A DNA stretch of 64,000 nucleotides from positions 682,001 to 746,000 of the forward strand of contig JACJID010000003.1 of NCBI GenBank assembly GCA_014138725.1, read 5' to 3'. Below are positions 9,818 to 27,924 of this stretch, piece after piece (positions within the stretch are counted from its first letter, which is position 1; the number at the start of each line of letters is the position of its first letter). The stretch is from Kutzneria viridogrisea (lineage in GTDB: Bacteria > Actinomycetota > Actinomycetes > Mycobacteriales > Pseudonocardiaceae). The notes beneath the pieces were generated by a model that was not told the DNA's origin, made no database searches, and saw only the letters and a program-made list of their open reading frames with translations. The translations under genes were made by a program, and so were the position numbers.

Positions 9818-9845
9818 GTGGTCACGCCTCGCCCCCACACCCCGC

Positions 9846-9957
9846 GAGTCCCGTCCTGGCGCACGCGAGTCCCGCTGAGCCGCACACGAGTCCCGGCCAG
9901 GGGCGCACGAGTCCCGGTGAGCAGCACACGAGTCCCGGCCGGGGGTGCACGAGTCCC
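9846..9957 (+). repeat. 21-bp phased GAGTCCC array, six copies
   Basis: GAGTCCC begins at 9846, 9867, 9888, 9909, 9930 and 9951, exactly every 21 bases. The 14 bases between cores are only loosely conserved (often ending GCACAC or GCGCAC). Same family as the arrays near 12.6-12.8 kb and 27.5 kb. It lies between two divergent genes, directly left of the multi-hairpin elements. The reading frame open across it is heptapeptide-like low-complexity sequence, which I do not consider a gene. Confidence 0.9.
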
Positions 9958-10001
9958 ACCCACCGACGCACGAGGCCACCCGACTCGCCCACCCCGCCCC
10001 C

Positions 10002-10136
10002 GCGTCTTCGCGCCGGTCTCTGGACCGCCGGCCCGAGATGATCACATCTGTCCAGTGATCATCTCGGGACAGGGAAGAGACCGGACCTCAGCGAAGACGC
10101 CGCGCCCCGGAGGGGCGCCAAGAACACAGCGGGCCC
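10002..10136 (+). repeat. Modular multi-hairpin repeat, copy 1 (3' truncated)
   Basis: Nested inverted repeats: GCGTCTTCGC/GCGAAGACGC outside, CGGTCTCT/AGAGACCG within, and an inner perfect 14-bp stem CCCGAGATGATCAC/GTGATCATCTCGGG with loop ATCTGTCCA. A second small hairpin GCGCCCC-GGA-GGGGCGC follows. It stops at GCGGGCCC where copy 2 begins in tandem. The same architecture with different but still complementary stems recurs in copies 2 and 3. Confidence 0.88.
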
Positions 10137-10346
10137 GCGTCTTCGCGCCGGTCTCTGGACCGCGGGCTCAGGTCGACCGCATCTGTCCAGCGGTCGACCT
10201 GAGACAAGGGAAGAGACCGGACCTCAGCGAAGACGCCGCGATCCGGAGGATCGCAGAGAGCGCAGCGGGCCCAGCATCCGACCAGGCCCGCTCGGGGCGC
10301 CCGCGTCAGTCCAGCGGGCGCCCCGAGCACCCCGCCAAGCGACCGC
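10137..10346 (+). repeat. Modular multi-hairpin repeat, copy 2 (fullest copy)
   Basis: Same outer stems as copy 1. The inner stem is CTCAGGTCGACCGC/GCGGTCGACCTGAG with the loop ATCTGTCCA unchanged, and the small hairpin is GCGATCC-GGA-GGATCGC. A third hairpin follows: 14-bp stem CTCGGGGCGCCCGC/GCGGGCGCCCCGAG with 9-base loop GTCAGTCCA. Stems change on both sides at once relative to the other copies while loops stay constant, which indicates selection on, or copying of, the folded structure. Confidence 0.9.
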
Positions 10347-27179: not shown

Positions 27180-27253
27180 TCCCCCACACATGCCAGGGAC
27201 GGCACACCGACTGGTGTGCCGCCCCTCGTCGGCTTCCCCCGCCTCGCGCAACC

Positions 27254-27482
27254 GCGTCTTCGCGCCGGTCCCGCGTCTTCGCGCCGGTCTCTGGACCGCG
27301 GGCCCACGATGATCACATCTGTCCAGTGATCATCGTGGGACAAGGGAAGAGACCGGGTCAGAGCGAAGACGCCGCGCCCCGGAGGGGCGCAGAGAGCGAA
27401 GCGGGCACAGCCATCAGTACCGAACCCACGCCCGCTCGGGAGAGCCCGCATCAGTCCAGCGGGCGACCCGAGCACCCCGTCG
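27254..27482 (+). repeat. Modular multi-hairpin repeat, copy 3
   Basis: Third copy of the element at 10.0-10.3 kb. Its first 17 bases (GCGTCTTCGCGCCGGTC) are duplicated. Inner stem CCCACGATGATCAC/GTGATCATCGTGGG keeps loop ATCTGTCCA; the small hairpin GCGCCCC-GGA-GGGGCGC and a third stem-loop with loop ATCAGTCCA follow, the last with an internal bulge. It lies between convergent genes and runs into a GAGTCCC array. Confidence 0.88.
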
Positions 27483-27488
27483 GAGACC

Positions 27489-27554
27489 GGGACTCACGCA
27501 CGTCTGACCGGGACTCGCGGCGTTGGGCGCGAGTCCCGCCCTGAGCAGGGACTC
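27489..27554. repeat. 21-bp phased GAGTCCC array, mixed orientation
   Basis: Cores GGGACTC at 27489 and 27510, GAGTCCC at 27531, and GGGACTC at 27548. The first three keep 21-base steps although the third is inverted. The last one overlaps the stop codon of the HesB-type gene. Confidence 0.8.
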
Positions 27555-27924
27555 AGTGGAACGAGTCTCCACACGCGCAGGACCCGCCCGCGTTCGGGTT
27601 GTCGATCGTGAAGCCCTGCTTCTCGATGGTGTCGACGAAGTCGATCGTCGCGCCCTGCACGTACGGCGCGCTCATCCGGTCCACGGCGACCTCGATGCCG
27701 CCGAAGTCGCGCAGCAGGTCCCCGTCGAGCGAGCGCTCGTCGAAGAACAGCTGGTAGCGCAGACCGGCGCAGCCACCGGGCTGGACGGCGATGCGCAGGC
27801 GCATGTCGTCGCGGCCCTCCTGGTCCAGCAGCGCCTTGGCCTTGGCCGCGGCCGCGTCGGTGAGCGTGACGCCGTGGGTCTGCTCCTCGGTCTTGGTCGC
27901 CTCGGCGGCGGTCTCCTGGCTCAT
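27553..27924 (-). CDS. HesB/ErpA-type A-type Fe-S carrier
   Basis: A 123-residue A-type iron-sulfur carrier/insertion protein. Conserved cysteines are in GGCAGLRY and in SCACGDSF near the C-terminus, which together bind an Fe-S cluster handed to client apoproteins. Matches Rv2204c in sequence and place. Start ATG with GAGGAG four bases before it. Clients nearby could include LipA, but that is inference. Confidence 0.9.
   Translation of the reverse strand: MSQETAAEATKTEEQTHGVTLTDAAAAKAKALLDQEGRDDMRLRIAVQPGGCAGLRYQLFFDERSLDGDLLRDFGGIEVAVDRMSAPYVQGATIDFVDTIEKQGFTIDNPNAGGSCACGDSFH

Follow-up and report, generated by a model that had tools for sequence, protein, structure and literature searches.

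The described systems closest to the element analyzed here are the REP/REPIN sequences with their RAYT transposases, REPs that carry a CGTC tag, the IS200/IS605 insertion sequences, and MITEs together with other small mobile sequences such as RU-1. Insertion sequences of the IS200/IS605 type join beside a short target without a duplication. They carry subterminal secondary structures, as stated in the available parts of two articles (PMC8266576, PMC6006769), and the available part of the former describes the RAYT transposase as recognizing the REP hairpin as a single strand and making its cut next to the hairpin, at CT or CA (PMC8266576). The CGTC-tagged REPs are portrayed, in excerpts of one study, as single stems of 8–9 bp with an unpaired CGTC tag, which lie mostly downstream of genes and seem to have no dedicated transposase; these excerpts list five phyla, do not contain the word Actinobacteria, and mention untagged REP-like sequences in M. 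tuberculosis (PMC3733652). Palindromic repeats with no known mobilizing enzyme are a recognized gap.

The element described below was found in a 64-kb window of the Kutzneria viridogrisea genome, that is, the whole stretch of DNA that was analyzed. It resembles REP/REPIN sequences in being palindromic, intergenic, and present in high copy number, but it differs from them in its length of about 130 nt, its four helices, the lack of a GTAG tag, and a CWG-like target beside the tail, 7–9 nt from the last hairpin (P4), and no intact RAYT was found in the seven Kutzneria genomes. With the CGTC-tagged REPs, as far as the excerpts characterize them, it shares the palindromes, the position mostly downstream of genes, and the lack of an associated transposase gene. 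Its subterminal secondary structures and its apparent joining beside a short target without a duplication are reminiscent of IS200/IS605, but it contains no transposase gene and, judged by eye, no guide sequence. Like MITEs and RU-1, it is short, non-autonomous, and intergenic, but it shows no duplication at a clean site and has an asymmetric end formed by P4 and the tail. No description of the element was recognized in a literature search that had most subscription journals and bioRxiv preprints outside its scope, nor do the available parts of two papers on Kutzneria genomes contain one (PMC10232511, PMC4210621). We rate it as a new, family-wide form of palindromic non-autonomous mobile DNA.

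Architecture of the element

The unit, referred to as module A, is about 130 nt long, is composed of four helices (P1–P4) and a 3′ tail, and is present in three copies in the window, all of which were recovered as full sense copies when the window was scanned with a covariance model (R1). P1 has 10 bp (GCGTCTTCGC/GCGAAGACGC in the window copies), P2 has 9 bp (CGGTCTCT/AGAGACCG), and P3 has 14–16 bp with variable letters. Together, P1–P3 form one long hairpin, whose internal loop has the 5′ strand GGACCGCN and the 3′ strand AAGGGA, and the small, GC-rich P4 hairpin and the tail, which ends near ...CAACA, complete the unit. The first-pass annotation, made from the letters alone, had described an outer and a second stem common to the three copies (P1 and P2), inner 14-bp stems that differ yet pair perfectly around one loop (P3), and a small hairpin altered on both sides (P4), and all of these are found in the sequence as described. 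The P3 arms are 100% complementary in each of the three copies, have a different sequence in each, and enclose the common loop ATCTGTCCA.

All features are on the forward strand. Copy 1 (9996–10125; 132.3 bits with R1, 118.9 bits with a second model, R2) has the 5′ arm of P1 at 10002–10011 (partner 10091–10100), the 5′ arm of P2, CCGGTCTCT, at 10013–10021 (partner 10076–10084), the 14-bp P3 hairpin at 10032–10068 with its loop at 10046–10054, and the P4 hairpin GCGCCCC-GGA-GGGGCGC at 10102–10118. Copy 2 (10131–10261; 144.2 bits with R1) has the 5′ arm of P1 at 10137–10146 (partner 10227–10236), the 14-bp P3 hairpin at 10167–10203, and the P4 hairpin GCGATCC-GGA-GGATCGC at 10238–10254. Folded as RNA, copy 2 surpasses each of 200 shuffled sequences in stability (z −6.49), and the other strand folded as DNA yields a similar value (z −6.54 versus shuffles). 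Copy 3 (27267–27397; 143.6 bits with R1) has its 14-bp P3 hairpin at 27303–27339. This copy had been noted before, but the start given for it, 27254, lies inside a tandem duplicate, 19 nt long, of the element's 5′ end (27252–27270), and the 5′ arm of the copy itself is at 27273.

A third 14-bp stem, which had been assigned to the same element, is indeed present (10290–10328), but it belongs to a separate module B and not to module A. Module B is a single hairpin, here with 14–15 bp and the loop GTCAGTCCA, which gives a weak, P3-like match to R1 (E 0.00063). It often follows module A on the 3′ side in the K. viridogrisea genome, and behind copy 3 it is represented by an imperfect stem with the loop ATCAGTCCA (27434–27473).

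Two minor features of the ends were also noted. The initial 19 nt of the element occur as two or three tandem 5′ repeats in the window (27252–27289) and at the loci L013, L016, L009, and L014 (the last with a change), and at L174 P4 and the tail are duplicated at the 3′ end. These tandem end repeats suggest slippage or end-specific copying. In addition, a CGAGTCCCG motif recurs with a 21-nt period to the left of the element (9845–9991), and the reverse motif CGGGACTCG is found to the right of copy 3 (about 27485–27560). By eye, mirrored motif arrays of a similar kind surround other copies in the K. viridogrisea genome; together, such arrays could pair across the element.

Distribution within the Pseudonocardiaceae

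A BLAST search with the window element revealed 29 places in the K. viridogrisea genome, partial and antisense matches included. Copy 2 with module B matched in five of six other Kutzneria genomes and in none of 34 further genomes from the family and the order, with up to 20 candidates scored per genome. A search of phages and plasmids with copy 2 gave no match. The covariance models, both of which were applied within the family Pseudonocardiaceae, extended this range. R1 yielded 309 matches (E up to 0.01) in six of seven Kutzneria genomes, namely 25 in K. viridogrisea and 108, 15, 41, 56, and 64 in the others, and zero in one Kutzneria genome of 4.7 Mb. Beyond Kutzneria, it reached three genomes of two other genera when 120 family genomes were scanned. 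The iterated model R2, which includes the non-Kutzneria sequences reached by R1, found matches in 57 of 297 genomes, representing 7 of 46 genera; at most 11 candidates were scored per genome, which makes the copy numbers minimum values, and the remaining 240 genomes had no match among the candidates scored. Alignment A1 leaves out two copies with long loops (L035 and L053) as well as some near-duplicates. A separate pattern scan returned 75 stretches, of which three Kutzneria genomes account for 42; two of the other 33 (L118 and L125) were given to R1 and did not match.

Thus, the covariance-model search that had been proposed on the basis of the three window copies yielded many further copies, which are mostly intergenic by our own gene calls (5 of the 86 copies from Kutzneria overlap with a predicted ORF). 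A lack of additional copies, stem changes that break pairing, and an Rfam match were looked for as grounds against the original reading, and none was found. No Rfam family matched the window at the gathering score, and when the limits were relaxed for the element region and for four loci, all matches stayed below that score.

Mobility, junction, and target

The presence and absence of the element can be compared at one clean site in a non-Kutzneria genus, for which 24 genomes are available. Two of these carry a full copy (G281 and G260), three carry internally deleted copies (G228, G305, and G253), and 19 are empty; the sequence was read for 17 of the empty genomes, for the two with full copies, and for G228 and G305, and G253 was judged by match coordinates. 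The filled site reads CACAAA-GCGAG...CATCCAACA-CTGGCAGG, and in the empty site, CACAAA(G/C)C-CTGGCAGG, the flanks are directly joined. At this site, a CTGG directly adjoins the tail ...CAACA, and because the CTG is also present in the empty sites, it is host sequence. No target-site duplication was detected at this single clean site when the 17 empty sequences were compared. The bases preceding the empty junction are GC in 7 and CC in 10 of the 17 sequences, leaving 1–2 nt unexplained, and the GC could be an excision footprint. This is the only perfectly clean site, and it may reflect either insertion or precise loss.

Within Kutzneria, three syntenic stretches of 200–220 kb show species-specific presence of the element and of other hairpin elements. 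Here, short stretches of unrelated sequence occupy the empty sites, where the element would be, and intergenic divergence blurs the ends. Taken together, the element is almost certainly mobile, and joining without a duplication is likely to be the general rule.

The nature of the target was assessed with 77 non-Kutzneria copies, which remained after removal of 4 antisense rows from a set of 81. A C[AT]G triplet is present in an 8-nt window at the tail in 54 of these copies, compared with 23, 11, and 16 in three control windows. The pattern NCNG starts 7–9 nt behind P4 in 70 of the 77 copies, a count without a control for a loose pattern that is often expected by chance; the target claim therefore rests on the C[AT]G count. 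On the 5′ side, a C at position −1 (frequency 0.86) is the sole conserved position. The lack of a duplication together with a short target close to a subterminal hairpin is characteristic of IS200/IS605-like insertion, and it is found here at the one clean site and, as far as the triplet is concerned, in the 54 copies.

Some copies retain P1, P4, and the tail but are devoid of P3 or of the inner hairpin (L176 in G137, and L345 and L346 in G228 and G305, respectively), as expected of hairpin deletion during replication.

Genomic placement

With gene calls from our own script, 82 of 86 Kutzneria copies could be placed relative to their neighbors: 29 are in convergent gaps, 19 in codirectional gaps in the same orientation, 20 in codirectional gaps in the opposite orientation, and 14 in divergent gaps. 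The corresponding values for 76 placeable copies of the 77 from outside Kutzneria are 26, 25, 12, and 13. For 38 non-Kutzneria copies, the downstream neighbor faces the tail, and in 25 of these its stop codon lies −6 to +4 nt from the end of the model. The tetramer at the junction is TCAG (CTGA on the other strand) in 11 of the 77 copies, and at three GroEL-like and three GlpK-like genes the TGA at the junction was recognized by eye as the stop codon of the gene. The position at gene ends is likely to reflect both target choice and survival, as landing at a TGA stop codon is harmless.

Next to the ribosomal protein L1 gene, the intergenic gap contains the element in three genera and in both orientations (L266, L268, L273, L315, and L052/L119); it is opposite to its neighbors at L266 and codirectional with them at L273 and L315. 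In a broader survey, clusters were formed from 369 proteins whose genes lie no more than 600 nt from a copy. Among the up to 25 clusters considered that were common to at least two loci, the largest, judged by eye, were ABC transporter ATPases, ribosomal protein L1, a response-regulator-like protein, SARP-like regulators, L11, and NusG, and no transposase was recognized. In two genomes, no origin marker usable for a replication-strand test was recognized in the initial 6 kb. The 6-kb region at the start of a complete chromosome (L254, G006:C1:1-6000) contains no ORF of at least 300 aa, which is odd at a GC content of about 70%.

Covariation and strand asymmetry

The first-pass annotation had concluded from the changes on both sides of the stems that the fold matters, and the covariation is indeed far above both controls, shuffled sequences and slid partners. 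Across 32 Kutzneria sequences (14 from K. viridogrisea), 95.8% of the cells are paired and 29 of 46 pairs have changed on both sides; the shuffles gave 78.5% and 19.9 pairs, and only 31–39% of the cells were paired with slid partners. For 30 sequences, of which 27 come from other genera, the values are 96.6% and 37 of 42 pairs, again far above the controls, in an alignment that was fitted to the model and thus leans towards structure. In addition, the arms of P3 have changed together at sites that are filled in two species; between L142 and L145, four both-sided changes and no broken pair were counted by eye. Such joint jumps can have their source in selection or in template switching, which is reported, in the available part of one article, to make and mend stems during replication (PMC8794818).

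Strong covariation is also what a functional structured RNA would show, that is, a transcribed sRNA or 3′-UTR element that exerts its function as RNA, with its copying being secondary. The loop and internal-loop letters are conserved within Kutzneria and copies adjoin stop codons, in line with such a role, but the P3 loops differ between genera. Moreover, the codirectional gaps of Kutzneria show no preference for either orientation (19 versus 20), the preference outside Kutzneria is weak (25 versus 12), no Rfam family reached threshold in the window and matches elsewhere were below it, and the precise presence or absence at the clean site speaks against this explanation as well. Genuine RNA tolerates G-U pairs and does not tolerate A-C, so that the two counts bear on the question as well. 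The stems of 31 K. viridogrisea tRNAs contain 29 G-U and no A-C, although the tRNA finder may itself disfavor A-C. For the element, 65 distinct copies from sister Kutzneria species, obtained by removing 5 antisense or weak rows of 100 and then duplicates, contain 14 G-U and 11 A-C, and the 14 copies of K. viridogrisea contain none and 2, respectively. Thus, there is no sign of strand-specific folding in the subfamily to which the window copies belong.

The copies from outside Kutzneria show a clear bias. Their G-U to A-C ratio is 18 to 5 in 25 rows (after removal of 5 reference rows of 30, three from Kutzneria and two from G137) and 82 to 18 in the 77 copies, with the caveat that the model selects and aligns the copies, P3 included, and can thereby favor G-U. 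Part of the excess stems from blocks of nine copies at two P2 pairs that look inherited within one genome. The counts suggest that one strand folds in the relatives. However, G-T is the mildest mismatch in single-stranded DNA, too, and the excess therefore does not discriminate between RNA and single-stranded DNA. On balance, we consider a functional RNA unlikely. The earlier alternative of a structured RNA or a DNA cruciform can thus be narrowed in part: mobility and the host target at the junction favor a DNA element, and the strand test cannot separate RNA from single-stranded DNA.

Two other proposals were abandoned. A family-wide lack of strand-specific folding, deduced from flat G-U and A-C counts, applies only to Kutzneria, in view of the 82:18 ratio outside. 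A pseudoknot between the GTCC of the P3 loop and a GGAC of the internal loop has 85.9% of its cells paired but no both-sided change, and the loop is lost in other genera.

Mobilization and proposed mechanism

The element probably constitutes a family of non-autonomous palindromic mobile DNA elements of the Pseudonocardiaceae that would be served by an enzyme encoded elsewhere. One strand would fold when it becomes single-stranded, in replication or as an intermediate of transfer, and the enzyme would recognize the hairpins and the tail. The unit would then be joined beside a CWG-like triplet, in the manner of the IS200/IS605 and REP systems, and the copies that survive would be mainly those just past stop codons. 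Joint change in the two arms of a stem might result from selection acting on the hairpin, from repair that uses the hairpin as its template (template switching), or from both. The lack of a duplication, the asymmetric end, the subterminal hairpin 7–9 nt from the target, and the strand bias outside Kutzneria all point to single-strand joining; for a single-stranded DNA intermediate as such, we regard the chances as evenly balanced. Somewhat more doubtful, though worth considering, is that these are a new class of hairpin elements which move as a folded single strand by means other than a known Y1/RAYT enzyme, such as an unrecognized nuclease-ligase or host replication and repair, and which are directed to TGA stop codons by way of CWG. 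If this targeting is true, the element lands harmlessly at gene ends.

The identity of the mobilizing enzyme bears on the relationship to classical REP/REPIN sequences moved by a resident RAYT (Y1) transposase. The palindromic structure and the intergenic location downstream of genes would fit this origin, and Y1_Tnp matches are present in 11 of the 24 genomes of the clean-site genus. However, no intact Y1 (HUH) transposase was found in the seven Kutzneria genomes: Y1_Tnp is absent from six and represented by a 58-aa fragment in the seventh (G003), and it is also absent from G072 and G208, which have 5 and 7 R2 matches, respectively. Nor was the element found at any of nine Y1 places examined, that is, 8 of the 24 places in the clean-site genus and the G003 fragment; with Y1 missing in Kutzneria and the element absent at Y1 places, a resident RAYT was rejected as the mover. 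A match to a described REP family, which would have spoken against the original reading, was examined via the defining tag: neither GTAG nor CGTC is present at either end, according to the base frequencies of the 77 non-Kutzneria copies, and four helices over about 130 nt take the place of the single 20–40 bp hairpin of REPs. We therefore hold a classical REP/RAYT system to be decidedly improbable.

A classical MITE, in which a DDE transposase reads the P1 arms as terminal inverted repeats, is less probable still. The P1 arms are inverted repeats and copies are numerous, but terminal inverted repeats at both ends are lacking, since P4 and the tail extend past one P1 arm, at one end only, and yet lie within the inserted segment. 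The absence of a target-site duplication at the clean site likewise speaks against a MITE of the DDE type, which was rejected, and is reminiscent of single-strand insertion of the IS200/IS605 or REP kind. That the copies are bidirectional terminators or other 3′-end hairpins of local origin and immobile is hardly credible. The hairpins are very stable and near stop codons, and 29 of 82 placed Kutzneria copies are in convergent gaps, but the tail is A/C-rich without a T-rich stretch behind P4 (base frequencies, 77 copies) and homologous copies occur at unrelated sites. The exact empty sites largely refute this explanation of their origin, although inserted copies may act as terminators.

For non-autonomous mobile DNA, the clean empty site, the hundreds of copies, and the defined junction make the question of the mobilizing enzyme testable. 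The results are also a warning for surveys of non-coding RNAs, since strong covariation on both sides of a stem is not by itself a sign of a functional RNA in the intergenic DNA of bacteria.

Other repeats were observed in the Kutzneria stretches compared. Two more dispersed repeats of about 150–160 nt are present in G001 (L215:2390-2546 and L215:8144-8306), with many matches and with empty sites in sister species; the second overlaps long-loop copies that are also matched by R1. Further intergenic hairpins, with GCGAGTCCCGC...GCGGGACTCGC arms or TGTCAGGAAGGGGCCC-like arms, fill gaps in G002 (around positions 149629 and 197143 in the joined stretch) where a sister species carries the element or nothing.
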